Assembly (NCBI RefSeq): GCF_009884975.1
Contig: NZ_CP041970.1
Location: forward strand, 620,001 to 684,000
Reading direction: 5' to 3'
Source: Acinetobacter dispersus
GTDB lineage: Bacteria > Pseudomonadota > Gammaproteobacteria > Pseudomonadales > Moraxellaceae
DNA: 64,000 nt
Position numbers and translations under genes: made by a program. Of this stretch, positions 45,559 to 60,786 are shown piece after piece. The notes below the pieces were generated by a model. That model was given only the letters and a program-made list of their open reading frames with translations. It searched no databases and was not told where the DNA came from. How positions within the stretch are numbered: the stretch's first letter is position 1; each line of letters starts with the position of its first letter.

Positions 45559-46854
45559 ATGAGAAATCTTAAATTAAATGCATTAACATTGACCATCGCG
45601 ATGACCGCTGCAATGCAAGCATGGGCGGCAGATACCAGCTTAAATGGGCTGTTTAATTTGCAACAGGACTGTCAGACTCGCAATGATTCAGTTGCAACTA
45701 TAACTACAGTATTGAGTTGCGGCAGCGTGCATGGTGCAGTGAAATCAGCCTATTATTCTTTGAATAATGGCTATTTTGTCAATAATTTAAACCAAGATAC
45801 AGCTGTGATCGGTGGCTATATCAAATATGAGACCGCTCCTTTTTATGGGGTACAGGCTGCTGTTGGTTATGATATTCAGCGTCGTTTAGACGAGAAGAAC
45901 AAAAATGATGAAGTTTCTGAATTAAAAGAAGATCGTGATGGTTTAGCAGAAGCTTATTTGACATGGAAAAATGATTTGGCTCGGGTGACGGTAGGTAATC
46001 AGCGTTTAAATTTACCTTTTATGGGAGACTACGCAGACCGCCGTGTATTGATGTTTTTATATCAAGCCGCGGATGTGCAGATCGGCAACCAATATGATTT
46101 CATACGTTTGACTAAAGTTAATAAATATAAAAGTTATGCTGAAGATGAGTTTACTAAAAGCTCGCGCCAAAATTCAAAAGTAGAAACGGATGGCGTTTGG
46201 TCAATTGGTGTAGGGAAACGTTTTGAGTTAGACGCGAATAAAACCCTCAAGACACAACTCTGGTATCAAGACTATGATGACTATCTACGCTTGATTTATA
46301 CCCAAGCGGACCTTGGATTTTCACAACTGAAATATGCTCCTGAATTTTCACTACAATATATGTCTGGTAAGGATCAGGGTAAAGCATTTGCTGGTGAGAT
46401 CAACAGTCAGGTTTGGGGTGTACAGGCTGCTTTTAAAGTATTGCCTGCCGCTAGTTTGAAGGTCGCCTATAACTATATTAAGCCAGACCAGAACAGCTAT
46501 TTAAATGGTGCCTTATTAATGCCGTATGCTAGTCAAACCTCATCTGGTGAAATCTTTGCACAACCCTTTTTTACCAGTACCCAGGATTTAGGTGCAGGCA
46601 ATGCTTTGATGTTGTCCTTAGAGGGTAAACTAACTGATCAAGTGATTGCAGGGGCACGTTATTCATTTATGGATTTAAAAGAGACCGAGAGTGCCGCTAG
46701 CCGTAATCAATCAGAATATATGCTATTCGGTATTTATAATTTCGCAGGTGCTTTAAAAGGTTTCAGTGTCAGTAATTTTGCAGGGATTCAGACTTCGCCA
46801 CGTTATGACAAGAATTTTTTACAAAACCGTTTTGCGTTGAGTTATAAGTTTTAA
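45559..46854 (+). CDS. OprD-family outer-membrane porin
   Basis: The 431-residue protein has a signal peptide ending MQAWAAD and a mature region with the OprD-type start and segments (GYIKYETAPFYGVQAAVGYDIQ, VGNQRLNLPFMGDYADRRVLM), ending in a terminal aromatic FALSYKF. OprD porins take up small organic acids or amino acids. The purine genes on both sides suggest a role in purine or allantoin uptake, which is positional only. It ends at a strong terminator. Confidence 0.82.
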   Translation: MRNLKLNALTLTIAMTAAMQAWAADTSLNGLFNLQQDCQTRNDSVATITTVLSCGSVHGAVKSAYYSLNNGYFVNNLNQDTAVIGGYIKYETAPFYGVQAAVGYDIQRRLDEKNKNDEVSELKEDRDGLAEAYLTWKNDLARVTVGNQRLNLPFMGDYADRRVLMFLYQAADVQIGNQYDFIRLTKVNKYKSYAEDEFTKSSRQNSKVETDGVWSIGVGKRFELDANKTLKTQLWYQDYDDYLRLIYTQADLGFSQLKYAPEFSLQYMSGKDQGKAFAGEINSQVWGVQAAFKVLPAASLKVAYNYIKPDQNSYLNGALLMPYASQTSSGEIFAQPFFTSTQDLGAGNALMLSLEGKLTDQVIAGARYSFMDLKETESAASRNQSEYMLFGIYNFAGALKGFSVSNFAGIQTSPRYDKNFLQNRFALSYKF

Positions 46855-46874
46855 TTGATTGAGCGATTGTAGCT

Positions 46875-46906
46875 AATGCATACCTCACAAGAGGTGTGCA
46901 TTTTTT
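46875..46906 (+). terminator. Terminator of the porin gene
   Basis: A 12-bp stem AATGCATACCTC / GAGGTGTGCATT with one wobble and a 4-base loop is followed by a T run. Confidence 0.87.
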
Positions 46907-46917
46907 ATGATCAAAAA

Positions 46918-46946
46918 GATAAAAAAAGCCCCCTTGATCGGGGGGA
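46918..46946 (-). terminator. Terminator of hpxO
   Basis: On the minus strand, a CCCCC / GGGGG stem with a 6-base loop is followed by at least seven T, just after the hpxO stop. Confidence 0.75.
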
Positions 46947-46963
46947 GTTAAAAAGATAAATAC

Positions 46964-48121
46964 TTAATCCAGTGGATTACCAATAATATTGCTAATAATC
47001 CCTTGCATGATATGTGAGCCTTGTTCCTGATATAGTGATTGATACCATTCTTGAGTCACTTCTGGATCTTTCATATGAGTGATATCACAACGTTTACGTG
47101 CTCTGAGTACCATTTCTTTAGTTCGATCATTCCGTTTGTTTTGGTAGCGTGTTAGGGCATCATCTAAACCGAAGGTATTGATTTGCAGGGCACGGGCAAG
47201 GTAAATCGCATCTTCCATCGCTTGGCAGCCGCCTTGTCCAATATCGGGTGTGGTGCTGTGAGCTGCATCACCTAACAATACCACTCGTCCTCTATAGAAA
47301 TCCATAAAAGGTTCAATATCATGGATTTCAACACGATTGGTTTTTTGTTGATCTAAACAGTCTATGAGTTTTTGTACAGGCTGACACCAACCCTGAAAAT
47401 GTGCTTTTAGCTCTTGTTTATAATATTCACGATCATTTGTCAGTCCTGCAGCTAATGGCACATCGAAGAAAAAATAAAAACGATTTTGTGCAACAGGCAT
47501 CAGTGAAACACGTTTGCCTTCACCAATATACGTGGTCCATTGCAGAGCAGGGGCAATATTTTCATCTACCTCGACCAGTCCGTTCCAATTGACATAGCCT
47601 GCATAGCGACGTTCGACTTGATAGCCAAGTACAAACTGTCGAGTGAGAGAGTGAGTACCATCTGCACCAATCAGTAGATCGGCTGTGGTTTGCGAGCCAT
47701 CCTGAAAATGGACCGTGACATCTTCTTGATGAGTTTCTATTGCGGTCATTTTCATGCCCAGTTTGATATCTTCCAAACCAAATTGTTGCATTAACAATTG
47801 CTGCAAATCCGCTCGGGCAATAGGATAGGCACGTTGTCCAACTTCTTTATATAAAGGTGTTAAACTAAATTGGGTCATGGTTTGTTGGCTTAGTCCGTCA
47901 ATATAAGCCAAAGATTCCATTTGCCCACCTAAAGCCTGAATTTGATCGGTTAATCCGAGATAATTTAGGCACTTGACGCCATTTGACCAAAGTGAAATCG
48001 CAGCCCCAACAGGTAATATTTCGGCTGCCTGTTCGTAAATCGTGACCTGATGACCAAATTTTTTTAAAGCGATACCAGCAGTCAAACCGCCCATACCTGC
48101 ACCTACAATCGCAATATTCAT
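46964..48121 (-). CDS. hpxO: FAD-dependent urate hydroxylase
   Basis: The 385-residue protein is a class A flavin monooxygenase with GAGMGGL at the N-terminus, LIGADGTHS and [18 protein letters not shown] motifs, and the length and sequence pattern of Klebsiella HpxO. It converts urate to 5-hydroxyisourate using NADH and O2, so this genome need not use a copper-free urate oxidase. It has its own sigma-54-like promoter. It is divergent in orientation from the porin side and lies downstream of the GntR gene. Confidence 0.9.
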
Positions 48122-48164
48122 CGTTCAGACTCTAAATATATAAATAAGTTTCTAAACAGTTCTA

Positions 48165-48181
48165 AGCGAGAAGTGTGCCAA
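48165..48181 (-). promoter_or_regulatory. Sigma-54-type promoter of hpxO
   Basis: On the minus strand TTGGCAC-ACTTC-TCGCT has a perfect -24 box and GG-to-GC spacing of ten bases; the -12 box has one change (TCGC). Transcription would start near 48154, 33 bases ahead of the ATG. Confidence 0.65.
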
Positions 48182-48200
48182 TTCTAATAACTGGTTTTAC

Positions 48201-48211
48201 TGGTCATACCA
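48201..48211. promoter_or_regulatory. GntR-type operator near hpxO
   Basis: TGGT-CAT-ACCA is an inverted repeat of the same class as the sites at 43083 and 49122. It lies about 50 bases upstream of the predicted hpxO start, between the promoter and the end of the GntR gene. Confidence 0.55.
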
Positions 48212-48303
48212 GATATTTTGCTTTATTAAAAAGCAGAAATAGAAAGGCTGCATTGATGTGGTTCAAAGCATGGGGCAAAGTGGTGCAGATTTAATTTTGG
48301 TCG

Positions 48304-49020
48304 TTAGATCGAGCTGTTATGTCGAGAAAAATAGACCCCAGCCCGTTGCGCAGCCCCAATAATATGCGCTTGCATGGCTTTTTCTGCCGCCGCTGCATCT
48401 TGTTTAAATAAGGCTTGTAGAATGACGTCATGTTCCTGAATGGTTTTAAATGCCAAATTGGGTTGTAGGAAAGGCAGGATTTGACTCTTTTTGATCCATT
48501 CAGTATGCATTTTAAGTGTTTGAATAATTGATTGATTATGGCTTAGTAAAATAATTTGCTGATGAAAAGCATAGTCAGCTTCAGAAGCTGCTTGCCAATT
48601 CTGTTCTTGAATTGCACTAGTCAGTGCTTGATGATGTTGTTCTAAAATAGATTTGTCTTGTGCGGTTAAATATTCACACGCCAGCAGTGCGCAAAAGCCC
48701 TCGAGTACATAGCGTAGTTGGTAGAAATCCTTGAGAGAAATCCGATGCTCGCCATCCCATTGTTCTGCCGCTTGGCTATGCTGTGAAATAACGTAAACTC
48801 CTTTACCAGCCTTGATTTCTAATAGCCCTAAGGCTGCAAGACGGGTTAATGCTTCGCGTAAAGAAGCACGGCTGATTCCTAATTGAAGAGCAAGATCACG
48901 TTGTGATGGCAGGGCAGAACCGACCGCATAAGTGTTCTGTTGAATGCGTTGATGAATCACTTCCACCGCTTGCTCAGTCACCTGAGATGATTTTCCATTG
49001 AGCATAGCTTGTGGACTCAT
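48304..49020 (-). CDS. GntR-family (FadR subgroup) regulator of purine catabolism
   Basis: The 238-residue protein starts with a GntR winged helix (GSALPSQRDLALQLGISRASLREALTRLAALGLLEI) and continues with an all-helical FCD domain (EADYAFHQQIILLSHN and HIIGAAQ segments). A TTG and CTG upstream of the ATG at 49020 extend the frame by two codons but are unlikely. It is divergent from alc, with an operator in between, and sits among the purine genes. Effector unknown; urate or allantoin would fit. Confidence 0.85.
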   Translation of the reverse strand: MSPQAMLNGKSSQVTEQAVEVIHQRIQQNTYAVGSALPSQRDLALQLGISRASLREALTRLAALGLLEIKAGKGVYVISQHSQAAEQWDGEHRISLKDFYQLRYVLEGFCALLACEYLTAQDKSILEQHHQALTSAIQEQNWQAASEADYAFHQQIILLSHNQSIIQTLKMHTEWIKKSQILPFLQPNLAFKTIQEHDVILQALFKQDAAAAEKAMQAHIIGAAQRAGVYFSRHNSSI

Positions 49021-49121
49021 CAGCAACGCACCTTAAATATAAAAATAAACAGTTTGATTCTACACAAAATTTATCTTTGTGTTGGCGTTCTTGATTGAAA
49101 ATAGCTATATTTTTAACAACA

Positions 49122-49130
49122 GGTCTGACC
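49122..49130. promoter_or_regulatory. GntR-type operator between the regulator and alc
   Basis: GGTC-T-GACC is the core of the palindrome seen at 43083; its right side continues to AG, matching the other site. It adjoins the -24 element of the alc promoter and could control both divergent genes. Confidence 0.6.
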
Positions 49131-49132
49131 AG

Positions 49133-49149
49133 TTGGACTGGATCTTGCA
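49133..49149 (+). promoter_or_regulatory. Sigma-54-type promoter of alc
   Basis: TTGGACT-GGATC-TTGCA has the correct ten-base gap between GG and GC, with a less perfect -24 box. The start would be near 49160, about 24 bases before alc. Confidence 0.6.
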
Positions 49150-49183
49150 TAATAGAATAGAAATGAAATATCAGGAATGATCA

Positions 49184-50188
49184 ATGACAGTGCATGTTGC
49201 TAAAAGCGTAGCCTTACCGAACCATTTTCAATGCCTAACCAATCTTGCGGATGCCAGAATTGGTGCAACTATCGTGAGCTGTTCCGATGAGTTTTTTGCT
49301 GAAGCTGCAAGAATGTTGCAAAGCACACCCGCTCAATTCATCGACGGAAAATATGATGATCACGGTAAATGGATGGATGGTTGGGAAACACGGCGTAAGC
49401 GAGAAGCAGGTTATGACTGGTGTATTGTTCATCTAGGTGTGGCAGGGCTGGTATCTGGATTTGATATTGATACTTCTTTCTTTACAGGCAATTATCCAGC
49501 ATCCGCTTCTATTGAAGGCTGTTATGCACCAGATAATCAATTAGAAGGTATGACATGGACTGCATTATTAGAAAATACAGTTCTATCTCCGGATCAGCAC
49601 CATTTCTTTGATTGCTCAGCACAGAAAATCACGCATATCCGCATTAATATTTTCCCTGATGGGGGTATTGCCCGTTTACGGGTGTATGGCCGTGTGGTGC
49701 TTGAAAATGTTGATACAACTCAGCAGATGGATTTGATTGGTTTAAAAAATGGTGGGCGCATTGTGGCCTTTAGTGATGCGCATTTTGGCCATCCGAATAA
49801 TTTGCTAAGTCCTGATCGCGGTTTAAACATGGGAGATGGTTGGGAGACCAAACGTCGCCGTGCACCAGGTTTTGATTGGTGCATTATTGCTTTGGGACAA
49901 ACAGGGCAAATTGAAAAAGTTGAAGTGGATACCGCTTATTTCAAAGGGAATTATCCTGCATTTTGTTCGATTCAAGCGGCTTATGTTGAAGATGCAACCG
50001 ACGCGCAGCTTATTCCTCAGAGTATGTTTTGGTCCTTTTTATTAGAACAGCAGCCTTTGACGATGGACAATATTCATGAATATGTTGCAGAAGTGCTTCA
50101 GCATCAAAAAGTGAATTATATCCGCGTCAATATGATTCCTGATGGAGGGATTAGTCGGATTCGTTTATGGGGGAAAGTAGTTAGGTAA
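49184..50188 (+). CDS. alc: Allantoicase
   Basis: The 334-residue protein contains two allantoicase repeats: each has DGWETRRKREAGYDWCIVHLG or the similar DGWETKRRRAPGFDWCIIALG segment, and each repeat ends with INxxPDGGIxRLRVYG. It hydrolyses allantoate to ureidoglycolate and urea. It follows a sigma-54-like promoter and is 67 bases before the allA start. Confidence 0.93.
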   Translation: MTVHVAKSVALPNHFQCLTNLADARIGATIVSCSDEFFAEAARMLQSTPAQFIDGKYDDHGKWMDGWETRRKREAGYDWCIVHLGVAGLVSGFDIDTSFFTGNYPASASIEGCYAPDNQLEGMTWTALLENTVLSPDQHHFFDCSAQKITHIRINIFPDGGIARLRVYGRVVLENVDTTQQMDLIGLKNGGRIVAFSDAHFGHPNNLLSPDRGLNMGDGWETKRRRAPGFDWCIIALGQTGQIEKVEVDTAYFKGNYPAFCSIQAAYVEDATDAQLIPQSMFWSFLLEQQPLTMDNIHEYVAEVLQHQKVNYIRVNMIPDGGISRIRLWGKVVR

Positions 50189-50255
50189 TTTCTCATGGGT
50201 GAATAGCCTCATTGTGATTCAATGGGGCTGATAAGAAATGGAAGAGAATAAACAT

Positions 50256-50792
50256 ATGCATGAAAAAAATATTGAAATTCGACCTTTAACTCAAGAGAGT
50301 TTTGCACCATTTGGCGATGTAATTGAAAAGAGTGGTAAAGACTTTATTCCAATTAATCAGGGGCTCACTGAACGTTATCATGCGCTTTCACTGGCACAGA
50401 TTTCAGGAGAGCAGGCTACGGTTGGGATGAGTATTTTTCATAATCTGTTTGCAACATCGATTCCATTTCAAATTGAGATGTTAGAACGGCATCCTTATGG
50501 TTCGCAGTCTTTTATTCCATTACAGCAACAGAAATTTATTATTGTTGTGGCATTGCCGTTTGATCAATCACGACCTGATGAACAACGGATTCAAGCTTTT
50601 ATCAGTAATGGGCAGCAGGGGATCAGCTACCATCAAGGAGTGTGGCATCATCCTTTAATTACCTTAGAGGCAAATAGTGATTTTCTAGTGGTAGATCGGA
50701 TTGGTGGCGGTAGTAATTGTGATGTACATCATTTATCTCAACCGTACTGGATCACTGAAGCTTTAGTACAGTCAGAGATTGTGAATCTCTGA
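50256..50792 (+). CDS. allA: Ureidoglycolate lyase
   Basis: The 178-residue protein is of the ureidoglycolate lyase type (EIRPLTQESFAPFGDVIE, ERHPYGSQSFIPL, GVWHHPLI). It splits ureidoglycolate to glyoxylate and urea, the last step of this route. An ATG at 50238 begins the frame; the ATG at 50256 has GGAAGAG nine bases upstream and is the better start. Same transcript as alc. Confidence 0.88.
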   Translation: MHEKNIEIRPLTQESFAPFGDVIEKSGKDFIPINQGLTERYHALSLAQISGEQATVGMSIFHNLFATSIPFQIEMLERHPYGSQSFIPLQQQKFIIVVALPFDQSRPDEQRIQAFISNGQQGISYHQGVWHHPLITLEANSDFLVVDRIGGGSNCDVHHLSQPYWITEALVQSEIVNL

Positions 50793-50806
50793 CTGACTTA
50801 GTAGTT

Positions 50807-51820
50807 TTAATATTTCCCTTTAAAATTCGCACTAATTCTTTGTTTTAAATATTCCTTCGCCGTGATGGCTGGATATTTCTGTTGCGGACTTTCAATCAGC
50901 ACATCTTCATTGGCTTGGCAGAAGAAGGCTAGGCTATAACGCGCTCCTTGATACTCATTTGCTTCTGGATTTTTGACACGATGGAAATTAGAAGGTAATT
51001 GATCATCACTCCAACGCATCAGCATATCGCCAATATTACAGGTGATCACATCATCACGTGGCTCGATACTGGTCCATTGTTGTTGTTCCATATCTTTACC
51101 TGGACAGACTTGCAATCCGCCTTGACCTTTACGTTGGAACAGTAGGGTCAAACAATCAAAATCGGTATGTGCACCGGCACGCCATAGCCCTAATTGGTCT
51201 TTTAATGCTGGATCAATTGCATAGTAGTGCAACATTCTTAAGGTACTTTGATAGCTGTCTTGTTCAGGATCGTGGGCAAGACTAAAGAAATTATCGGCAA
51301 AACCCAGTTTATAAGCAAAGCAGGAGAGTATTTTCATCCCAACTTGCCAGCAGGCATGTTCAAATTCGAGCATGGTATTTTTAAAGTCAGGCAGCTCTTG
51401 TTCGGTTGGATACAGTCCCTCCATTCGTGGACGAGTAATTTGGTAGGATTCTTTCTGGTCTGGGGTACTGGTTGATGGACGAACCTGAGCCTTACTTTCC
51501 CAACCCGCATTTCGATTAAGCGGATAGCGTGCTTTGACAGGTTCAGGTAGAGCAAAAAACTGTTGTGTCATGTCAAATGCAGTTTGGATTTGCTCAAGTG
51601 GAATACCATGATGTGAGACCTGAAAAAAACCGATATCAGTAGCAGCGGCCCAAAGCTGCTCCGCGATTTCATACTTACGTTGTTCAAAGTCAGATAAATC
51701 AATCACCCGAACTTCACGTTCAAAGGTTTCTTGTCCCAAAGCACCCATACGGGCTTCTTTTTGTAGCTCTTCTAAGCTGTAGTCATTTTCCGCTAATGCT
51801 GTCATGTTGGCGCTATTCAT
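50807..51820 (-). CDS. 2-oxoglutarate/Fe(II)-dependent oxygenase, isopenicillin-N-synthase type
   Basis: The 337-residue protein has the jelly-roll iron ligands His218 and Asp220 (HTDFD) and His280 (SNFHRV), and Arg294-x-Ser296 for 2-oxoglutarate. The N-terminal segment IDLSDF and GFFQVSHHGIP are typical of the isopenicillin N synthase-like oxygenases. The open frame extends to 51955, but the ATG at 51820 has GAGG eight bases upstream. In the purine cluster it may hydroxylate a purine, but no substrate can be read from sequence. Confidence 0.78.
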   Translation of the reverse strand: MNSANMTALAENDYSLEELQKEARMGALGQETFEREVRVIDLSDFEQRKYEIAEQLWAAATDIGFFQVSHHGIPLEQIQTAFDMTQQFFALPEPVKARYPLNRNAGWESKAQVRPSTSTPDQKESYQITRPRMEGLYPTEQELPDFKNTMLEFEHACWQVGMKILSCFAYKLGFADNFFSLAHDPEQDSYQSTLRMLHYYAIDPALKDQLGLWRAGAHTDFDCLTLLFQRKGQGGLQVCPGKDMEQQQWTSIEPRDDVITCNIGDMLMRWSDDQLPSNFHRVKNPEANEYQGARYSLAFFCQANEDVLIESPQQKYPAITAKEYLKQRISANFKGKY

Positions 51821-52282
51821 ATTTTCAACCTCATCTTTTGGATAAACCGTGACCCAATCAAATAGATTGAAAGAGACGGGGTCACATTCAAAAAAGAGCC
51901 GCACTTTTTCCATAAGAGAAAGCTTGGTGGAAAAAGTGAGCTGATTTCTGAGCAATGACCCACATAACAGTCGATGTGACTAACTATGCTGAACGCTTCT
52001 ACTCTGACATAAAGTCATAAGCATTTTTTATACCAGTTTATAAATGAATGAAAATGGACGAATACACAGATAAGTTCTAAGGTTCACAAATGGTTTTCTT
52101 TCCATCAAAGTACAAATGATTCATTGCTGGGCATAAGTTTGTTTTAAAACAGTGCATTTAGTATTCAATTTTATTTTTGATTGCGCACAAAATTGAAAAA
52201 ACAATCTGGATGCTTTAGCTAGGAACCAATAAAAATAAATCCAATCTAGATTATGACGATGAAAAATATGATGAAATCAATC
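51821..52282. other. Upstream regions of the oxygenase and the ABC operon
   Basis: No gene is seen. A weak sigma-54-like element on the minus strand at 52021-52036 could serve the oxygenase. The rest is AT-rich without clear palindromes. Upstream activator sites for the sigma-54 promoter at 52283 might lie here but I could not pick them out with confidence. Confidence 0.45.
52021..52036 (-). promoter_or_regulatory. Weak sigma-54-like element ahead of the oxygenase gene
   Basis: On the minus strand CTGGTAT-AAAAA-ATGCT has the GG-to-GC spacing of ten bases but departs from consensus at the third to sixth bases. It would start transcription near 52009, 189 bases before the ATG. Confidence 0.35.
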
Positions 52283-52299
52283 TTGGCACAGAGCTTGCT
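52283..52299 (+). promoter_or_regulatory. Sigma-54 promoter of the purine ABC transporter operon
   Basis: TTGGCAC-AGAGC-TTGCT is a near-perfect match to the sigma-54 consensus, with GG at 52285-52286 and GC at 52297-52298. The expected start is at about 52310, three bases before the first helix of the structured leader. Confidence 0.85.
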
Positions 52300-52309
52300 A
52301 AATCATTAC

Positions 52310-52487
52310 TGAGTATAAGCGGTCAGTGTGTTGTGAACACACGGGACATTGCTCTACAGCGTTTGCTGTTCCTCTTTCGGGGACAAAGCCAATTGATTTG
52401 GTTTTGAGAGAAATGTGTAGCTTATACATTGATTGCCCCCTAAAAAGAATAGCAAGATGAATCCATACAGATTTAGGGGTCTTACTT
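52310..52487 (+). promoter_or_regulatory. Structured 5' leader with buried ribosome site: riboswitch-like element
   Basis: Folding by hand gives P1 GTATAAGC/GCTTATAC (52313-52320 with 52420-52427); P2 GTGTGTT/AACACAC (52326-52332 with 52336-52342); P3 ACATT-G-CTCT with AGAG-A-AATGT (52346-52355 with 52407-52416); P4 ACAGC/GCTGT (52356-52369); P5 TCCTC/GGGGA (52370-52383); P6 AAAGCCAA/TTGGTTTT (52385-52405). P3-P6 meet in a four-way junction with only two unpaired bases, and P1-P3 meet in a three-way junction. A hairpin CCCCTAAA/TTTAGGGG (52437-52444 with 52472-52479) then covers the AGGGG ribosome site of the gene at 52488. Its 5' arm could instead pair with GGGG-A-CAA of P5/P6, a possible switch. 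I do not recognise the class. Confidence 0.7.
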
Positions 52488-53480
52488 ATGAATATTCAGC
52501 ACTATGTAGGCAAAGGGCGACGTACTGTTATCGCAAGCACGTTATTGGGTTTAGGAATACTTCTTAGTTCAACCAGTTATGCAGCCGATAAACTTGTTTT
52601 ACAAACCACATGGTTTGCACAAGCCGAGCAAGGGGGATATTACCAAGCACTGGCACAAGGAATTTATAAAAAATACGGGCTCGATGTCGAGATTAAAATA
52701 GGTGGGCCACAGGTCAATAACATGACCTTATTATTATCAAAGCGTGCCGACATTATTATTAATTATGACCTACAGGTCTTAAAAGGCATCGAAAGCAACT
52801 TTCCCATCAAAGCGGTGGCAGCACCATTTCAATTTGATCCACAAGGCGTGCTCACTCACAGCGATGTAAAGTCTTTGGCCGATCTCAAAGGCAAAACCAT
52901 TCTTGTTTCGACCAGTGGACAAGCAAGCTGGTGGCCTTGGTTAAAAGGTAAATATAAATTAGATGCTGCACAAGCACGCCCATATACCTTCAATATGCAG
53001 CCTTTTTTAGCAGGCAAAAATGTCGTGCAACAAGCTTATGCGACCTCTGAAGTCTTTCAGGCAAAAAAAGCAGAACTATCGAGTAATTTCTTTTTATTTG
53101 CTGATGCTGGTTATCCAGCCTATGGCGGCATTTTAGTGACCCGCAATGATGTCATTCAAAACAAACCTGATGTGTTGAGCCGTTTTGTCCAAGCTTCGAT
53201 GGAGGGGTGGAAAAACTATTTAGCCGATCCGCGTTTGGGCAATAACATCATTAAAAAAGAAAACCCGAATATGAATGAAGAATTACTGACGTTTGCAGTT
53301 GGGCAAATGCGCAAATTGAAATTGATTGATGGAGGAGATGCCAAGACCCAAGGCATTGGCGTGATGACAGATGCACGTTGGAAAGCAACGCGAGATTTTA
53401 TGGTGAACTCAGGCTTACTCAAAGCTCAGACCAATTGGAAAGCTGCTTATACCACGCAATTTATTAAAGCTAGCAAATAA
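52488..53480 (+). CDS. ABC transporter substrate-binding protein (SsuA/NMT1-like)
   Basis: The 330-residue protein has a signal peptide (ending TSYAADK) and the NMT1/THI5-type binding fold: LQTTWFAQAEQGGYYQALAQG, GLDVEIKIGG, VKSLADLKGKTILV. This periplasmic family serves sulfonate, nitrate, riboflavin-like or pyrimidine/purine transporters. Here it is followed by its ATPase, its permease and a purine-type amidohydrolase, so a purine or purine breakdown product is likely. Its ribosome site is inside the leader hairpin described above. Confidence 0.85.
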   Translation: MNIQHYVGKGRRTVIASTLLGLGILLSSTSYAADKLVLQTTWFAQAEQGGYYQALAQGIYKKYGLDVEIKIGGPQVNNMTLLLSKRADIIINYDLQVLKGIESNFPIKAVAAPFQFDPQGVLTHSDVKSLADLKGKTILVSTSGQASWWPWLKGKYKLDAAQARPYTFNMQPFLAGKNVVQQAYATSEVFQAKKAELSSNFFLFADAGYPAYGGILVTRNDVIQNKPDVLSRFVQASMEGWKNYLADPRLGNNIIKKENPNMNEELLTFAVGQMRKLKLIDGGDAKTQGIGVMTDARWKATRDFMVNSGLLKAQTNWKAAYTTQFIKASK

Positions 53481-53544
53481 TCTTAGCTCTAAATCATGGT
53501 TGAAGGGTTAACAAAATAGTGCATTCGCATCAAGGGGAAACCAC

Positions 53545-54366
53545 ATGAATTCTGCTTTATCAATTGAGATACCAATACAAGAATCTTCTAACTTTATTAC
53601 GCCAATGATCATGGCTAGAGGGGTTGAAAAAACTTATCCCAATGGCACCAATGCCTTACAAAGACTGGATTTAAATATTGCACGCGGCGAGATTATTTCA
53701 TTATTGGGACCATCAGGTTGCGGTAAAAGCACCTTGCTGAAAATGTTTGCCGATCTCGAGCAACCTTCTGCTGGATTAGTGCGCTGGAATGGTAAAGCTG
53801 ATATTCAATCACAGTGCAAAATGGCCATGGTGTTTCAGGAAGCCACGCTGATGCCGTGGGCCAATATTGAGGACAATGTGCGTTTACCTTTGGACTTACA
53901 GCGTATTGCCAAATCAACCAGTACGCCCAAAGTCCAAGCTGCTTTAAAAGCCGTTGGTTTAGAAAAATTCAGCACAGCTTATCCACGTGAACTTTCAGGC
54001 GGCATGCAAATGCGTGCCTCTTTGGCCAGAGCCTTAGTGACAGAACCTGATCTATTGTTGATGGATGAACCTTTTGGTGCATTGGATGAGTTTACCCGCC
54101 ATAAACTGGATAGCGATATTCGTCAATTATGGTCAGAACGAGATCTTACAGTGGTGTTTGTGACCCATAGTATTTATGAAGCGGTGTATCTGTCCTCACG
54201 GGTCATTGTGATGGGTGCACGACCAGGGCGTGTGGTGGCGGATCTGAAGATTAAAGGACCATACCAACGTGATGAGTCTTTCCGAAGCTCAGACATCTTT
54301 ATTCAACAATGTTCGCATCTATCGCAATTATTGGCCGAAGCGAGTGAAGGGCATGCTCATGATTAA
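53545..54366 (+). CDS. ABC transporter ATP-binding protein (SsuB-like)
   Basis: The 273-residue protein has all ATPase motifs: Walker A GPSGCGKST, Q loop VFQEATLMPW, signature LSGGMQMR, Walker B LLLMDEPFGALDE and the switch His in VTHS. It follows the binding-protein gene by 64 bases and overlaps the permease start. It powers import with the permease encoded next. Confidence 0.92.
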   Translation: MNSALSIEIPIQESSNFITPMIMARGVEKTYPNGTNALQRLDLNIARGEIISLLGPSGCGKSTLLKMFADLEQPSAGLVRWNGKADIQSQCKMAMVFQEATLMPWANIEDNVRLPLDLQRIAKSTSTPKVQAALKAVGLEKFSTAYPRELSGGMQMRASLARALVTEPDLLLMDEPFGALDEFTRHKLDSDIRQLWSERDLTVVFVTHSIYEAVYLSSRVIVMGARPGRVVADLKIKGPYQRDESFRSSDIFIQQCSHLSQLLAEASEGHAHD

Positions 54367-55153
54367 ACCATTGCTACAACATCCAACTTTACAACGTATT
54401 GCCGCGCCATTGGGACTCGGTTTGATCTTCCTACTGTTTTGGCAACTGAGTTTTCAACAACTTGAAGTCCCTGTTTATGTCGTACCTAAACCGAGTGATA
54501 TTGTCATGGCACTGATTAATCAGTCCAGTGTGCTATTCGGTAGTTTATGGGTAACTTTAAAAATCACTTTATTGGCTTTTGTCTGCGCTGTAATGATTGG
54601 GACATTGATCGCTTTTGTATTTGTACAAAGTCGCGTGCTTGAAGCTTGTTTTATGCCGTATGCCATTTTATTTCAGGTGACACCGATTGTTGCAATCGCA
54701 CCTCTAGTTATCATCTGGATTCAAAATACCACTTTGGCGTTAGTGGTATGTGCCATGTTAGTCGCAGTTTTTCCGATACTGACCAACACCACTTTAGGTT
54801 TGCGTAGTGTCAATAAAGGTTTGCTCAATCTTTTTCAAATCAATAAAGCCAGTCGTTGGCAAGTTTTAATGCGCTTACGTGTACCGAATGCTTTACCTTA
54901 TTTCTTTGGTGGCTTACGGATTTCCTGTGGCTTGGCACTGATTGGTGCTGTGGTTTCTGAGTTTGTTGCAGGCGCGGGTGGCACCAGTGCAGGCTTGGCT
55001 TATCAAATCTTACAAGCAGGTTTTCAGTTGGATTTACCCTTGATGTTTGCTGCACTATTCCTAATTACTTGCACAGGTTTGGGCTTATTTGTATTGATGT
55101 CCTTATTAAGTCAGTTCTTTTTAAGCAAATGGCATGAGAGTGAGCAAGTATGA
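54359..55153 (+). CDS. ABC transporter permease (SsuC-like)
   Basis: The 264-residue protein has about six hydrophobic helices and the cytoplasmic EAA-like loop (NKASRWQVLMRLRVPNALPYFFGGLRI) that contacts the ATPase. The open frame begins at 54269 inside the ATPase gene; of the nearby ATGs, 54359 is placed seven bases after GAAGGG and is preferred over 54353. It overlaps the ATPase stop and, at its end, overlaps the amidohydrolase start by four bases. Confidence 0.88.
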   Translation: MIKPLLQHPTLQRIAAPLGLGLIFLLFWQLSFQQLEVPVYVVPKPSDIVMALINQSSVLFGSLWVTLKITLLAFVCAVMIGTLIAFVFVQSRVLEACFMPYAILFQVTPIVAIAPLVIIWIQNTTLALVVCAMLVAVFPILTNTTLGLRSVNKGLLNLFQINKASRWQVLMRLRVPNALPYFFGGLRISCGLALIGAVVSEFVAGAGGTSAGLAYQILQAGFQLDLPLMFAALFLITCTGLGLFVLMSLLSQFFLSKWHESEQV

Positions 55154-56604
55154 GTACAAAGCAATTAAATCAAAGCTATTTAATTCAAAATGCCCATGCC
55201 ATTTTGACGGGTTTGACTGGGGACGCAGCACGTTGTTCATCTACTGATATCCGCATCCAATCTGGAAAAATTACGGAAATGGGGCGATTAAGCGCTCTGC
55301 CGAATGAACAGGTGATTAATGCCAAAGATTGTGTGATTTACCCAGCATGGATAAATACCCATCATCATTTATTTCAGTCTTTATTAAAGGGCGAGCCACA
55401 AGGATTGAATCAAAACCTGACCTCATGGCTTGCCAGTACACCGTATCGGTTCCGTGGCGCATTTGATGAAAAGACTTTTCGGATTGCAGTGCGTATTGGC
55501 TTGATCGAGTTGTTACGTTCGGGGTGTGCAACGGTAGCAGATCATCATTATTTATATTGGCCACAGATACCGTTCGATGGTGCTGCAATTTTATTTGATG
55601 AAGCTGAAAAATTGGGTATGCGCTTTGTGTTGTGTCGTGGCGGCGCAACCTTAACGCGTGGTTTGGAAAGTGAGTTACCTCAAGCCCTGCGTCCTGAGAA
55701 GTTTGAAGACTATATGTTGGATATTGAGCGTTTGGTGAAGCACTATCATCAGCCAGATTCAAATGCTTTCCGAAAAATCGTGATGGCACCGACTTCAACC
55801 TTGCATTCGACCACAGCGCGGCAATTACGCGAAAGTGCCAGAATTGCCAGACAATTGGGGATTCGGATGCATAGTCATTTATCTGAAACGGTAGATTATC
55901 TGGATGCAGCTAAAGCCAAGTTTGGTATGACCCCAGTCCAGTTCTGTGCCGAGCAGGACTGGATTGGAAGTGATGTCTGGTTTGCACATCTAGTGAAATT
56001 ATTACCTGAAGAAATTCAGTTGTTGGGCCAAACTCAAACAGGAATTGCGCACTGTCCACAGAGTAATGCACGTTTGGGTAGCGGTATTGCTGATCTTGTT
56101 GCTTTGGAACGGGCAGGCATGACCATTTCGATTGGAGTTGATGGTGCGGGTTCCAACGAAGCCGCAGATATGTTGTCTGAAACTCATGCTGCTTGGCTAT
56201 TACAACGCGCCAGAAAGGGGATGTTGGCGACACCTCAATATGAGGGCGGACAATTTGAAGGTGGTGCCGACGCTGCCAGTATTGAGGATGTGATCCGTTG
56301 GGGAACGGTGGGTGGTGCGAAAATCTTGGGCTTTGATCAAGTCGGTACAATTGAAGTCGGGCAACAGGCTGACTTGGTCATTTATCAGTTAGATGATCCT
56401 CGTTATTTTGGCTTGCATGATATGGCGATTGGGCCTGTGGCAAGTGGCGGACGAGCGCATATTAAGGCGATGTTTATAGCAGGGAAAATGGTGATGGAAA
56501 ATGATCAGATTCCTGATCTGGATATGATGGAGTTGGCTTGGCAAGCCAAGCAATCGGTAAAGTTGTTACAACAGCGGAGTATGGACATGGCGAAAATAGC
56601 CTAA
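55150..56604 (+). CDS. Amidohydrolase, 8-oxoguanine deaminase-like
   Basis: The 484-residue protein is a metal-dependent amidohydrolase: NTHHHLFQ holds the first metal His pair, HSHLSE a further His, AHCPQSNARLGSG another His, and VDGAGSNE the metal Asp. It resembles the cog0402 branch that includes 8-oxoguanine deaminase and hydroxydechloroatrazine ethylaminohydrolase. With 8-oxoguanine as substrate it would yield urate, feeding HpxO directly, which fits the cluster. Substrate remains inferred. Its ATG overlaps the permease stop. Confidence 0.78.
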   Translation: MSTKQLNQSYLIQNAHAILTGLTGDAARCSSTDIRIQSGKITEMGRLSALPNEQVINAKDCVIYPAWINTHHHLFQSLLKGEPQGLNQNLTSWLASTPYRFRGAFDEKTFRIAVRIGLIELLRSGCATVADHHYLYWPQIPFDGAAILFDEAEKLGMRFVLCRGGATLTRGLESELPQALRPEKFEDYMLDIERLVKHYHQPDSNAFRKIVMAPTSTLHSTTARQLRESARIARQLGIRMHSHLSETVDYLDAAKAKFGMTPVQFCAEQDWIGSDVWFAHLVKLLPEEIQLLGQTQTGIAHCPQSNARLGSGIADLVALERAGMTISIGVDGAGSNEAADMLSETHAAWLLQRARKGMLATPQYEGGQFEGGADAASIEDVIRWGTVGGAKILGFDQVGTIEVGQQADLVIYQLDDPRYFGLHDMAIGPVASGGRAHIKAMFIAGKMVMENDQIPDLDMMELAWQAKQSVKLLQQRSMDMAKIA

Positions 56605-56743
56605 GCCATAGATGATTAATTTTTACTATATTCCTGTAAATATTTTTTGTATGCGCTGTTTTAATGAGGGTATTTTAAACTCGCTATACAGATATTTACA
56701 GGGTCAGCAAAATAGCTGATTTACAGTGCCAAATTTTTGTTTA

Positions 56744-57307
56744 TCAAATTTCTGTTTTACGATCAACGCTATAATGTAATTCAACCATACCTTCACCCAT
56801 GTGATGAACGGAGATCAATTTAAGTGTTGGAGCAAGTACTCTTCGGGGGAAAAGCGCTTTTCCTTTTGCAAGAGTAACCGAACCAATTTGTATAATGAGT
56901 TCATCAAGCAAATTTGCATCATAGAACTGACCAGCCAATTCGCCACCGCCTACAATCCAAATATTCTTATCCTCAATGATGGATTGTATTTCAGCATAAA
57001 CAGGAGTGATGTCTCCTTGTACAAAATGGATATTTGCACCTTCAATCAAGGGCAGTTTACGGCTGGAAAATACCCAGGTTGGCTGAGTATAAGGCCAAGG
57101 AGAACCTGTTTCAGCAGCAACTTGCTCTGCGTTATTCAATATCCATTCATAAGTTGCCGATCCCATCACTAAAGCACCAACATTTGCAATAAACGCGGGA
57201 TAACTTGAGTTATCTAGTTCGCCTAATGCAAATAACCATTCTAAAGAATCGTCTTCGGTCGCAATAAATCCATCTAGTGTACTCGCTGCAAAATACTGTA
57301 CTTTCAT
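56744..57307 (-). CDS. Dihydrofolate reductase / RibD C-terminal domain-like protein
   Basis: The 187-residue protein has the RibD C-terminal/dihydrofolate reductase fold: FAASTLDGFIATEDDSLEWL, MGSATYEWIL, IWIVGGGELAGQF. Such stand-alone proteins are often of unknown role. An ATG at 57316 is too close to the AAGGAG ribosome site, so the ATG at 57307 is chosen. It lies 100 bases behind puuE on the same strand and may be co-transcribed. No known place for it in purine breakdown. Confidence 0.75.
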   Translation of the reverse strand: MKVQYFAASTLDGFIATEDDSLEWLFALGELDNSSYPAFIANVGALVMGSATYEWILNNAEQVAAETGSPWPYTQPTWVFSSRKLPLIEGANIHFVQGDITPVYAEIQSIIEDKNIWIVGGGELAGQFYDANLLDELIIQIGSVTLAKGKALFPRRVLAPTLKLISVHHMGEGMVELHYSVDRKTEI

Positions 57308-57407
57308 CCTGATCATCTCCTTATTCTAAAGGAGTAGCTTAAAGCTTATTTTGTTTGGATAAATTGTTTAAATCGGATATACGACACATGATGACGCTTT
57401 AATAAAT

Positions 57408-58358
57408 CTAAGCCTGAAAAGGATGATGTGTATACCAATGCTCGGCAATCTGCTGACGGGTGCAAATCCAGACGCGATCATGATTTTGTACATAGTCTAG
57501 GAAACGTTGTAATGCTTTAAAGCGGGCAGGACGTCCTAAAATTCGACAATGCATACCAATTGAAAGCATCTTGGGTGAGGTTGCACCTTCTGCATACAGT
57601 ACATCAAAAGCATCTTTTAAATATTCAAAGAAATCCTCACTACGATTAAAACCAGTCGGTGAAGCAAACTTCATATCGTTGGTATCGAGCGTATAGGGAA
57701 TAATTAAATGCGGTCGTGTTGTGCCCGTTTCATTACTGAGTGTTGTCCAAAAAGGTAAGTCATCGCCGTAATAATCACTGTCATATTGCACATGATCATA
57801 TTCAGCCAATAATTGACGGGTATTGGGGCTATCGCGGCCTGTATACCAGCCCGTTGGCATTTCACCAAACAGATCTTTGAATATTTGCATGGCTTCAGCC
57901 ATATGTTGCTTCTCGGTTTCAACATCCATATTTTGATAATGAATCCAGCGTAAGCCATGTGAGACCACATCATAGTTATTTTGTTTAATCGCTTCGACCA
58001 CCAGTGGATTTCGTTGCAATGCCATCGCTACAGCAAAAATAGTCATAGGCAATTGGCGTTTGGCAAATTCCTGCTGAATGCGCCAGAAACCGACTCGTGA
58101 ACCATATTCATAGATTGAGTCCATTGAAAGGTGTCGTGCAGGATAACTTTCCGCACCACTGATTTCAGACAAGAACTGTTCCGAGCCTTCATCGCCATGC
58201 AGAATATGTTTTTCACCACCTTCCTCATAATTCAGTACAAACTGCACCGCGATTTTTGCTTGATTGGGCCATTGGGCATGGGGCGGTTGATCGGCATAAC
58301 CGACCATATCTCGAGGGTAGTCTGCTGTTAAATGAGTGTCTGTATTGGGCCAAACCAT
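57408..58358 (-). CDS. puuE: Allantoinase, polysaccharide-deacetylase fold
   Basis: The 316-residue protein is the PuuE-type allantoinase, related to polysaccharide deacetylases: YPRDMVGYADQPP near the start, FVLNYEEGGEKHILHGD, VVSHGLRWIHYQ, and PTGWYTGRDSPNT. It opens the hydantoin ring of allantoin to give allantoate for Alc. It replaces the zinc amidohydrolase allantoinase. It is transcribed away from the LysR gene at 58486. Confidence 0.92.
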   Translation of the reverse strand: MVWPNTDTHLTADYPRDMVGYADQPPHAQWPNQAKIAVQFVLNYEEGGEKHILHGDEGSEQFLSEISGAESYPARHLSMDSIYEYGSRVGFWRIQQEFAKRQLPMTIFAVAMALQRNPLVVEAIKQNNYDVVSHGLRWIHYQNMDVETEKQHMAEAMQIFKDLFGEMPTGWYTGRDSPNTRQLLAEYDHVQYDSDYYGDDLPFWTTLSNETGTTRPHLIIPYTLDTNDMKFASPTGFNRSEDFFEYLKDAFDVLYAEGATSPKMLSIGMHCRILGRPARFKALQRFLDYVQNHDRVWICTRQQIAEHWYTHHPFQA

Positions 58359-58485
58359 AGCAATGCCTGAATCGTGAAAAGGTGAATCTTCACATCAACT
58401 TAACCTAAGAAAACTTTGGGTGTCAAACACTATATTGATTTAAATCAATGGTTTGTGTGTTTTGTTTTGGTGCAAAAATACCATG

Positions 58486-59418
58486 TTATTGATGAATATT
58501 TATTAGCATGCGCGATTTTAGTGCTTCCATCTCGATAATGATTTGATTCATCATGATTTGAGCAATCCGAGAAAGTTGCCGTTTTGGTGCAACACAAAGT
58601 GCGACCGTAATTGGATGTAGACCATGGTCATTGATCGCTCTAAATTCAAATTCACCATTTTCAATATAAGGGGCTGCATCCAGATAACTCATGATGCTGA
58701 TGCCTAGGTTTTGCCTGAGCAATGAAATCATCATATGAATATCATTGCATTCGATGGTATGGCGTGGGTGAAAGTCCTGTTTTTTATATAAGGCGGTGAC
58801 ATGGTCATGAATAACCAAAGGCTCGGCAGGAATAATATGATTGAATTCCAGCGTATCAGAGAAGTAGATTTTTTCTTTATGGGCTAAAGCGTGCTGTTTA
58901 GGAATCACGAAACCCAAGGGCATTTCAATAAAGGCACTGATCTGCAATTGATGCTGATGTTTGGGATTCAGAATCAAGCCAAAGTCGAGTTCAGCATTGA
59001 TCACTAAATCAGCGATACGATCACTGTCCAAGACACGAACCTTAAAATTAATCCATGGATATTGTTGAACAATAGACTGCATTACGGCACTGACAAAGCT
59101 TTCACTGAGTGCTGCAATCATCCCAAAATCAATTGAACCGCGTTGTATGCCTTGGATTTCATTCAAACGTTTCTGTGTGATTTGGAACTCTTTTTGCCAG
59201 CTGCGTAGATCGGCATAGAGTAATTCACCAGCTAAAGTCAGCTTAAGCCCACTGGGCAAACGTTCAAATAAAGCCACACCGAGTTCTTCTTCTGCCAAAA
59301 CAATCTGCCGATGTACCGCGGAGACAGAAATAAACAGTTGATCAGCCGCTTTTCTTAAACTGCCTGTTTTGGCAACGGCAATAAAATAATCGGCAAAACG
59401 TGAAAATGGCAGCGCCAT
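58486..59418 (-). CDS. LysR-family regulator divergent from the Rieske oxygenase
   Basis: The 310-residue protein has a LysR N-terminus (FADYFIAVAKTGSLRKAADQLFISVSAVHRQIVLAEEELG) and a ligand domain (DFGMIAALSES, ISIMSYLDAAPYI). It is divergent from the HpxD-like Rieske gene, with a strong inverted repeat between them. It could also act on puuE downstream. Effector unknown. Confidence 0.85.
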   Translation of the reverse strand: MALPFSRFADYFIAVAKTGSLRKAADQLFISVSAVHRQIVLAEEELGVALFERLPSGLKLTLAGELLYADLRSWQKEFQITQKRLNEIQGIQRGSIDFGMIAALSESFVSAVMQSIVQQYPWINFKVRVLDSDRIADLVINAELDFGLILNPKHQHQLQISAFIEMPLGFVIPKQHALAHKEKIYFSDTLEFNHIIPAEPLVIHDHVTALYKKQDFHPRHTIECNDIHMMISLLRQNLGISIMSYLDAAPYIENGEFEFRAINDHGLHPITVALCVAPKRQLSRIAQIMMNQIIIEMEALKSRMLINIHQ

Positions 59419-59488
59419 TGCAAACTCACTTGAGATAAAGCAGGTTTTAATACAGAAGCAATTTTAGTGCCTGTGCTGTTCTAATTTT

Positions 59489-59514
59489 TAGAATGATGCA
59501 TATAAATCATTCTA
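59489..59514. promoter_or_regulatory. LysR-type operator in the divergent promoter
   Basis: A perfect 9-bp inverted repeat TAGAATGAT / ATCATTCTA with an 8-base spacer lies midway between the LysR gene and the Rieske oxygenase gene. Confidence 0.65.
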
Positions 59515-59582
59515 ATAGACGAGAATATTGATCTATTCCACACTGCTCATGAAGAGAAAAATCTTAAAAATGAGCACAGGAT

Positions 59583-60638
59583 ATGAACGCAATTCCATTC
59601 ATCAATCTTCCAAATAAGCCATGTCATAGCCAATTTGATGATCAGGATTGGCAGATTCTTGCACAACATTGGTATCCCGTGGCACGTATTGAAGATGTGA
59701 GCAGTAAACCGCAGCAAGTGACCTTATTGGATATGAACCTGGCTTTGTATAAGACCGAAACAGGGCAGATTCATTTAGCTCGGGATATTTGCCCGCATCG
59801 CGGTGTGCCTTTGAGTAAAGGCTGGGTTGAGGGAGATACTTTGATTTGTCCTTATCATGGACTTCATTTTAATGAAGATGGCAAATGCTCTAAAATCCCA
59901 GCTCAACCTGATTTAACTAAAATCTCAGAGCGCTTTTCGCTGACCAAGTTTCCCGTGGTTTTAAAATATGGACTGGTCTGGACCAGCATTTTGGGCAGAG
60001 ATGAAAGTTTGGCAAATTTCCCTGTATTAGACACATGGGAGAGTGAGGCACATCAAGCCATTTTACCGCCTTCAGTCGATATTGCCGGTTCAAGCGGTCG
60101 TCAATTGGAAGGTTTTATTGATGTGGCACACTTTGCTTGGGTACATCATCAGGCCTTTGCCGATCGAGATAATCCTGTTGTACCTAAATATTCGACTGAA
60201 CGTACCGATTATGGTTTGCATACAAACTACATTAGTAATGTCAGCAATTATCCGCATGGGATGCAGCATTTAGCACCTGATGATTTTTTATGGGAGCGGA
60301 TCTTTGATGTTTATCCGCCATTTTCAGCAGTGTTAACCATTCACTTCCCGAATGACGGTGTGCTCAAGATTTTAAATGCCTGTTGTCCCATCTCGCATAA
60401 TAAAACTCGCTTATTTGTACCATTAACCCGTAATTTTGATACTACGGGGGATTTACAGGCGGTGTATGATTTTAATGCGCAGATTTTTGCCGAGGATCAA
60501 GAGATGGTAGAGGCGCAAAAGCCAGAAGAATTACCTTTAGATATTAGTATGGAAGCACATTTTGAAGCAGATCGTTCTTCGACCATGTATCGCCGTATCT
60601 TGGCTGAATGGGGTTTAAGCAAACGCTATACGGTTTAG
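59583..60638 (+). CDS. Rieske oxygenase, HpxD-like
   Basis: The 351-residue protein has a Rieske centre (CPHRGVPLSKG then CPYHGLHF) and an oxygenase domain with a FIDVAHFAWVHHQAF segment carrying iron His. It resembles vanillate/HpxD-type oxygenases, and HpxD in Klebsiella is linked to hypoxanthine oxidation. No reductase gene (HpxE-type) lies in this window next to it. Purine oxidation is therefore a hypothesis from homology and place. Confidence 0.75.
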   Translation: MNAIPFINLPNKPCHSQFDDQDWQILAQHWYPVARIEDVSSKPQQVTLLDMNLALYKTETGQIHLARDICPHRGVPLSKGWVEGDTLICPYHGLHFNEDGKCSKIPAQPDLTKISERFSLTKFPVVLKYGLVWTSILGRDESLANFPVLDTWESEAHQAILPPSVDIAGSSGRQLEGFIDVAHFAWVHHQAFADRDNPVVPKYSTERTDYGLHTNYISNVSNYPHGMQHLAPDDFLWERIFDVYPPFSAVLTIHFPNDGVLKILNACCPISHNKTRLFVPLTRNFDTTGDLQAVYDFNAQIFAEDQEMVEAQKPEELPLDISMEAHFEADRSSTMYRRILAEWGLSKRYTV

Positions 60639-60720
60639 CTTGAATAAATTTGGGATATTTAAGAGATTAAATCAGAGTTGTTTATCTTCTATTAAGCCTA
60701 AATTGTTTATTTGTATAGGC

Positions 60721-60732
60721 TTGTATATACAA
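60721..60732. promoter_or_regulatory. HutC operator at the hutC promoter
   Basis: TTGTATATACAA is a perfect palindrome of the HutC type (TGTA-N2-TACA). A half-site copy (TATACAA) follows at about 60749. The same palindrome lies ahead of hutU. Confidence 0.75.
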
Positions 60733-60786
60733 TTGCGCTAAATTCAATATACAATGAGTTATAGTATTTAGTATGAGTTTTAGCCA

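Follow-up and report, generated by a model that had tools for sequence, protein, structure and literature searches.

The xanthine riboswitch, or NMT1 motif RNA (Rfam RF03054), was described by Yu and Breaker in 2020 (PMC7373994) with xanthine and uric acid as its ligands, and the main text of that report gives NMT1-type binding proteins, dioxygenases and PRK12393 amidohydrolases as the genes associated with the class. The same paper notes that in Hydrogenophaga two aptamers lie side by side and point in opposite directions. The published sign of control is OFF: in the Hydrogenophaga intermedia leader, picked partly for the short distance between its aptamer and the ribosome site, a core mutant expected not to bind ligand raised reporter expression. 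As given in the main text, this evidence is a reporter comparison of the wild type with one core mutant of one leader, in rich and minimal medium, and no reporter titration with added ligand is described there (PMC7373994). Among the papers listed by our literature search, which covered titles and abstract openings and few subscription papers, none dealt with an ON xanthine riboswitch or with a sigma-54 promoter for the class, and for xanthine riboswitches in Acinetobacter the same search gave no paper.

We analysed a stretch of 64,000 nucleotides from Acinetobacter dispersus (NZ_CP041970.1, positions 620,001 to 684,000; hereafter the window), in which a preliminary description had proposed a new riboswitch class for the leader of an ABC transporter and amidohydrolase operon. 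An Rfam scan of the whole window returned two matches, both to RF03054, which lie among the following features:

52306..52359, plus strand: xanthine (NMT1) riboswitch aptamer (RF03054, 56.9 bits, all 56 model positions)
52311-52315/52350-52354, 52323-52324/52345-52346 and 52326-52332/52336-52342, plus strand: aptamer stems P1, P2a and P2b, respectively
51945..52009, minus strand: second xanthine riboswitch aptamer, serving the divergent dioxygenase gene (RF03054, 55.5 bits)
50807..51955, minus strand: 2-oxoglutarate dioxygenase with a DIOX_N domain (PF03171, PF14226)
52488..53480, plus strand: substrate-binding protein, Pfam NMT1/THI5-like (PF09084, E 2.2e-27)
53545..54366, plus strand: ABC transporter ATPase (PF00005)
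54269..55153, plus strand: ABC transporter permease (PF00528; the true start may be later than the first GTG of the ORF)
55150..56604, plus strand: amidohydrolase (NCBIfam PRK12393, 760.9 bits, cut-off 543)

Both RF03054 scores exceed the gathering threshold of the family (36 bits), and the plus-strand match is a full-length alignment in which P1, P2a and P2b are present, the conserved AAGCGGUCAG and CGGGACAUUGCUC are matched and the core bases are intact. A permissive Rfam search of positions 51700-52700 (E up to 1) found no family besides RF03054, the purine, ykkC/guanidine and other riboswitch models giving no match. The genes expected of the class, namely the PF09084 binding protein, the ABC subunits and the PRK12393 amidohydrolase, all lie 3' of the aptamer; for the amidohydrolase, the next-best model was 8-oxoguanine deaminase (380.9 bits, below its cut-off of 532). 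It had been stated that no known class fits this leader, xanthine/NMT1 included, and an Rfam search had been set beforehand as a check; its hit to RF03054 within the leader contradicts that statement, and the claim of a new class therefore falls. The broader expectation, that the leader is a metabolite riboswitch and that its ligand is probably a breakdown product of purines, was borne out by the class, urate having been among the candidates listed. As judged from sequence, the leader is a riboswitch of the known xanthine/NMT1 class and, by class membership, a predicted sensor of xanthine or urate, whereas its expression platform would be a new variant, with a reversed sign predicted by folding and a wide distribution. 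In the literature consulted, including the text of PMC7373994, this platform is undescribed, and Supplemental Figure S1 of that report may already draw related platforms.

The surrounding region (46000-62000 of the window) holds a purine-breakdown cluster with an HpxO urate hydroxylase, an allantoicase and a PuuE allantoinase, which adjoins a Rieske oxygenase and a HutC-type repressor; the ORF at 50238-50792 resembles a ureidoglycolate lyase by eye. PMC7373994 connects gene types or pathways of this kind with the class. Homologues of the dioxygenase begin at MNSANMT, internal to the ORF 50807..51955. On that side, the leader (51800-52009, minus strand) has a platform unlike the one on the binding-protein side: an alignment of 12 loci (8 distinct leaders) displays a conserved hairpin of the GUGACCC...GGGUCAC kind, the first strand of which is also complementary, by eye, to the aptamer's own GGGUCAUUGCUC, and this complementarity suggests a second kind of anti-aptamer switch.

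A sigma-54 promoter had been noticed just upstream of the leader, and an element of this type is indeed present:

52283..52299, plus strand: sigma-54-type promoter (-24/-12 elements TTGGCAC-AGAGC-TTGCT, 12 of 13 consensus positions)

Presuming that the -24/-12 consensus and the usual sigma-54 spacing rule apply here, transcription would start at about 52310, from which the mRNA is predicted to begin at the aptamer stem P1. In 64 of 68 leaders, as against 0.8% of shuffled upstream regions, a GG..GC element agrees with the consensus at 9 or more of its 13 positions, and in those 64 it ends 11-14 bases 5' of the aptamer's GAG; the four leaders with no match include two (L078 and L080) in which the aptamer start was mis-located. 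Nitrogen control, as the promoter type suggests, would form an AND gate together with the riboswitch, expression then needing both nitrogen shortage and an oxidised purine.

Between the aptamer and the start codon lies a platform of 128 bases (52360-52487), and the elements assigned to it and to its exchange with the aptamer are the following:

52313..52427, plus strand: 8-bp outer stem (52313-52320/52420-52427), a clade-limited anti-aptamer helix excluded by P1
52352..52410, plus strand: four-way junction closed by P3 (52352-52355/52407-52410)
52356..52369, plus strand: junction hairpin h1 (ACAGC/GCUGU), 100% of cells paired
52370..52383, plus strand: junction hairpin h2 (UCCUC/GGGGA), 96.3% of cells paired, little variation
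52384..52406, plus strand: junction hairpin P6, 8 of 9 pairs changing on both sides (38 distinct sequences)
52412..52430, plus strand: linker hairpin P7 (52412-52419/52423-52430), from sequence inspection
52365..52453, plus strand: putative antisequestor (52365-52371 with 52447-52453; 52375-52382 with 52437-52444, one mismatch)
52437..52479, plus strand: sequestor hairpin over the ribosome site (52437-52444/52472-52479)
52474..52480, plus strand: Shine-Dalgarno sequence UAGGGGU

The helices drawn in the preliminary description are present in the sequence, and the 178-base leader has a folding energy of -54 kcal/mol. Its dinucleotide shuffles lie at -41.8 (sd 3.75), which places the leader at z -3.25, and 1 of 200 did as well. 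The six-helix fold into which they had been assembled is not the aptamer; it corresponds instead to the ligand-free state, with the aptamer unfolded, together with the expression platform, and its 8-bp closing stem takes up bases that belong to the actual aptamer. The predicted probability of that closing stem is 1.00 in the free transcript when this ends at 52430, and drops to 0 once P1 has formed, but the stem is absent from the final minimum-energy fold, and it did not hold as a general feature, being found in close relatives only, with its partner absent or broken in other clades. The four-way junction, the separate hairpin over the ribosome site and an alternative partner for the sequestering 5' arm, which proved to be the junction hairpins h1 and h2, were all recovered. 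The 5' strand of P3 is made of three bases of the P1 3' strand (52352-52354) and the next base, so that P1 and P3 are mutually exclusive; in the free ensemble P3 forms with P=0.79, and with P1 formed this value is 0. The loop and 3' side of h2 resemble the Shine-Dalgarno region, and would act in this sense as a decoy, because they are nearly complementary to the sequestering arm. The antisequestor would engage h1 by its 3' half and h2 over its full length (GCUGUUC with GAAUAGC; UUU-GGGG with CCCC-AAA), thereby excluding the sequestor, since 52437-52444 is common to both, and also h1 and h2, with which it shares bases. Counterparts of P7 in other clades were recognised by eye only, that of Alkanindiges being weak. 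An ATG at 52457-52459, within the sequestor loop, does not share the reading frame of the binding protein in the window; its counterpart does share it (MNPYRFRGL...) in several close relatives, with a weak ribosome site there, and an upstream start of the binding protein at this position was rejected on these grounds.

RF03054 matches were found in 31 of 149 genomes of the genus, 29 of which have at least two, and in 4 of 369 genomes of the class, 2 of them over the cut-off. When named genomes were searched for the binding protein (80 of 118 loci kept), the set was extended to Enterobacterales, Pseudomonas and Burkholderiales; in 64 of the 80 loci the binding-protein gene has a loose aptamer pattern upstream of it, and when 11 divergent loci were put through Rfam, all 11 had an aptamer on the binding-protein side and 8 a second, opposing one. 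Alignment of 29 binding-protein-gene leaders (28 distinct, out of 30 loci) revealed a conserved block straight 3' of the aptamer, composed of CUCU, h1, h2, a variable P6 and GAGAG, where CUCU/AGAG forms P3. Over the 24 junctions that are distinct, there is hardly any variation in P3, h1 and h2, and 7 of the 9 P6 pairs change on both sides. A junction model (R1), built with no Enterobacterales, Alkanindiges, L062 or L063 sequences, scores the window leader at 82.5 bits, this leader being itself in the model-building set. R1 matched 36 of 348 genomes of the family (2 of 16 genera), once each, and in the class sample of 369 genomes its sole match was the genome of the window itself, yet named Enterobacterales loci do match: among 54 loci outside the main Acinetobacter set there were 14 matches (L098 and L061 being the same place), including Citrobacter, Pantoea, Enterobacter, Franconibacter and Alkanindiges, and none in two Mangrovibacter loci or in the Pseudomonas and Burkholderiales loci. 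Acinetobacter baylyi carries a leader of the window type (L095).

The junction was then represented by 38 distinct rows, drawn from 44 junction matches from 46 sources, many of the Acinetobacter ones having built R1. Across them 95.8% of the pair cells pair, and the P3 pairs, four in all, are intact in 37, 38, 38 and 31 rows. Compensatory changes in homologues, which had been anticipated, were seen in the P6 arm; in h1, one pair changed on both sides (Alkanindiges) and the rest is nearly invariant. Covariation over the whole structure was 0.262; shuffling gave 0.131, with 0 of 500 shuffles reaching the observed value, and sliding the structure gave no more than 0.089. The alignment was fitted to the junction model and so leans towards it, and nearly all of the covariation lies in P6. 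As an isolated duplex, P3 is no stronger than shuffles in most leaders. Because the P6 arm covaries, we judge from these comparisons that the four-way junction is real.

Several further observations were made among the relatives. Pseudomonas leaders have possible P3 counterparts, CUCUUGC with GCAAGAG, seen by eye and not distinct from shuffles in a duplex test. At L066:2486-3859, one Acinetobacter genome harbours a third xanthine aptamer, 5' of the gene for a FAD_binding_4-domain protein, a gene type absent from the gene list of the class in the main text of PMC7373994; its P1 strand can pair, by eye, with an adjacent GAGC and with a GAGAGC near the start. Three Pseudomonas loci (L114, L115, L117) and three of Burkholderiales (L128, L130, L134) have an upstream ATG in phase with the binding protein, adding about 46-58 residues, and in L114, L115, L117 and L130 its strong Shine-Dalgarno sequence comes from a GAGAG/AGGAG strand able to pair with the P1 3' strand; such a start could provide a leader peptide or an N-terminal extension under direct control. 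Finally, the leader and gene of L103 (a record titled Chryseobacterium sp. 18061) are close to those of Citrobacter L101, and this record is possibly a mislabelled or mixed assembly.

For the putative antisequestor, the window leader alone provides modest evidence, and the case rests on its relatives. The duplex of the window has an energy of -20.1 kcal/mol, and 15 of 300 shuffled arms were as low; 7 of 32 arms from other groups were as good, and 23 of 32 foreign junction segments paired better with the window arm. In other clades the sequestering arm and the Shine-Dalgarno sequence change together and, in divergent relatives, the h2 loop bases change together with the arm, which supports the antisequestor itself, since these loop bases are unpaired in the junction. 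Thus, complementarity is found between UCAAUAGAGGG and CCCUCUAUUGA in Alkanindiges (Shine-Dalgarno AGAGG), UCGUCAGGGG and CCCCUGAUGA in Pantoea, CUCAAUA and UAUUGAG in the Acinetobacter paralogue type L062, and, as read from the sequence, CCUCAUCAGG and CCUGAUGAGG in Mangrovibacter. In 11 Pseudomonas leaders, the loop region of an h2-like hairpin can form a nine-base pairing with the arm, in six distinct combinations; 95 of 99 cells in this register are paired, whereas permutations averaged 87.2 and peaked at 94 (0 of 2000 as high). With length-matched segments, the cognate duplex was better than the non-cognate average for 40 of the 43 leaders from Moraxellaceae and Enterobacterales and for all 11 from Pseudomonas, counts that include two representatives (L101 and L110) with a mis-picked arm. 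With full-length duplexes of 17 group representatives, from 0 to 16 of the 16 foreign arms were at least as good, a test confounded by the long, G+C-rich Pseudomonas arms. When arms were shuffled, no more than 19 of 300 shuffles did as well for 13 of the 17 representatives, the others being L121 (20), L118 (31), L125 (86) and Citrobacter L101 (153). In a contiguous-match test, the cognate arm was outright best in 2 of 12 groups (L082 and L098), the arm being cut off by the test window in L106 and L110.

The direction of control was predicted by constrained folding, with energies that ignore ligand, tertiary contacts, pseudoknots and kinetics. For the window leader taken from its predicted start, the free ensemble put the sequestor at a probability of 0.98 and the antisequestor at 0.02; forming P1 changed these values to 0.31 and 0.69, and forming P3 to 1.00 and 0.00. 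An earlier run, in which the leader was longer by 18 bases upstream and shorter by 8 bases on the coding side, yielded 0.93/0.05, 0.00/0.97 and 0.99/0.00 for the three conditions, and a more open ribosome site with P1 in 21 of 28 leaders, L026 moving clearly towards the sequestor. Formation of P1 changed the energy needed to open the Shine-Dalgarno sequence of the window leader by -2.69 kcal/mol, a value matched by 0 of 40 shuffled platforms. This opening energy fell in 39 of 43 Moraxellaceae and Enterobacterales leaders (mean -1.23; aptamer starts corrected); L101, L103, L107 and L108 gave the OFF sign, and L062 and L063 hardly switched. In the run over 68 leaders (L078 and L080 with mis-located aptamer starts; L085 left out, no start codon having been located), the ON sign was obtained for 31 of 31 Moraxellaceae, 8 of 12 Enterobacterales (the record L103 included), 9 of 10 Burkholderiales and others, 1 of 11 Pseudomonas leaders of the long type and 1 of 4 other Pseudomonas. 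All but at most one of 16 shuffles were beaten by 15 of 31 Moraxellaceae, 3 of 12 Enterobacterales-type, 5 Burkholderiales and other, 1 long Pseudomonas and 0 other Pseudomonas leaders. In a control with 40 shuffles, on 13 leaders hand-picked out of the 68, the number of shuffles as low was 0 for the window, L084, L095, L109, L112 and L113, 1 for L087 and L098, 3 for L079, L099 and L102, 5 for L097 and 18 for L062r.

Folding of the growing transcript showed that, with its end at 52455-52471, the antisequestor is favoured with or without P1, its h1 part having probabilities of 0.77-0.94 in the free and 0.96-0.97 in the P1-bound chain; the two conditions part at 52480, so that the decision would fall as the ribosome site is made. 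Holding the 3' strand of P3 open in the absence of ligand lowered the opening energy in 28 of 40 leaders and brought the antisequestor of the window leader to only 0.03-0.04, indicating that P3 alone is not the coupling and that other pairings of the aptamer 5' half matter. In three leaders from Ramlibacter, the Shine-Dalgarno region is itself a direct partner of the P1 strand, in duplexes for which 0 (L138), 14 (L139) and 0 (L143) of 200 shuffles were as low; the opening energy there is lower with P1 by 0.7, 0.3 and 1.0 kcal/mol, respectively, and ON control is also predicted by these models.

Taken as a model, the window leader is probably an NMT1-class riboswitch for xanthine or urate that acts on translation and turns its operon ON upon ligand binding. 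Without ligand, the 3' strand of P1 would pair downstream as P3, helped in the window's clade by outer pairings of the aptamer 5' half, and the four-way junction would close, with h1 and h2 holding the Shine-Dalgarno decoy busy; the arm 52437-52444 would then be free to cover the real Shine-Dalgarno sequence (OFF). Xanthine or urate would lock P1, so that the junction could not close; h1 and h2 would open, the decoy would take the arm through the antisequestor, and the ribosome site would be left free (ON). The ON logic comes from P1 fitting either the sequestor or the antisequestor, and the closed junction only the sequestor, and our preference for it in the window leader reflects the narrow basis of the OFF sign in the published main text together with the Ramlibacter prediction. 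We are also a little more inclined to accept than to doubt the wider proposition that the class includes ON switches, with a conserved three-state platform (P1-P3 exchange, decoy and separate sequestor) in Moraxellaceae and Enterobacterales, a counterpart in Pseudomonas, a sigma-54 AND gate and direct ON control in Ramlibacter.

The same class and pairing elements could instead work as an OFF switch, the P1-bound RNA keeping h1, h2 and P6 and hence the sequestor, and the ligand-free RNA being kinetically trapped in an antisequestor made before the Shine-Dalgarno sequence is transcribed. OFF is the sign published for one class member (PMC7373994, main text), the antisequestor preference of the free transcript at 52455-52471 makes such a trap possible, and the long Pseudomonas leaders had a slightly positive mean energy change (0.43, not clearly different from the 0.20 of shuffles). 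We nevertheless consider this reading unlikely for the window leader, as P1 excludes both P3 and the outer stem, two elements of the fold that allows the sequestor, no pairing was found by which P1 favours the sequestor, the P1-bound growing chain favours the antisequestor at least as much as the free one, and the equilibrium sign is ON in the 39 of 43 leaders given above. That the platform is uncoupled from the ligand in vivo, aptamer and hairpins being independent and serving, for example, as an mRNA-stability or ribosome-standby element, seems very improbable. In its favour, P3 is short (4 bp), isolated P3 duplexes do not rise above shuffles in most leaders and the window leader responds little when P3 alone is opened; against it, the P3 strand is kept across two bacterial orders and the loop of h2 varies in step with the sequestering arm. 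The conservation of the junction, with RF03054 as the only Rfam family in 51700-52700, could speak for a new riboswitch class built around a nested four-way junction; that very aptamer, complete and high-scoring, occupies the same bases and rules the class out for this leader, and in the 36 positive genomes of the family there is one junction match each, to a model that includes the P1 strand of the aptamer. We attach next to no weight to it.

If the ON reading is correct, the class would gain an ordinary role, the induction of purine use as a nitrogen source, on the basis of an ON-predicting platform, a transport operon within a urate/allantoin breakdown cluster and a nitrogen-type promoter. 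In the proposed decoy design, the regulated part would be a near-copy of the Shine-Dalgarno sequence hidden in the junction. A direct test is feasible in A. baylyi, a laboratory species that has such a leader. The window leader is like the RF03054 leaders in the main text of PMC7373994 in its aptamer core, its P1, P2a and P2b stems, its gene associations, its opposing aptamers and the sequestration of the ribosome site, and unlike the short OFF platform tested there in having 128 bases with a junction, a decoy and a separate sequestor, with ON control predicted. With the purine (guanine/adenine) riboswitches it has the metabolic area in common, and no Rfam match to them was found in the leader. 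In the add adenine riboswitch, a translational ON switch, P1 competes directly with the sequestering pairing. As in add, ligand is predicted to stabilise P1 of the aptamer in the window leader and thereby to free the ribosome site; unlike in add, control would pass through an intermediate junction and a decoy.
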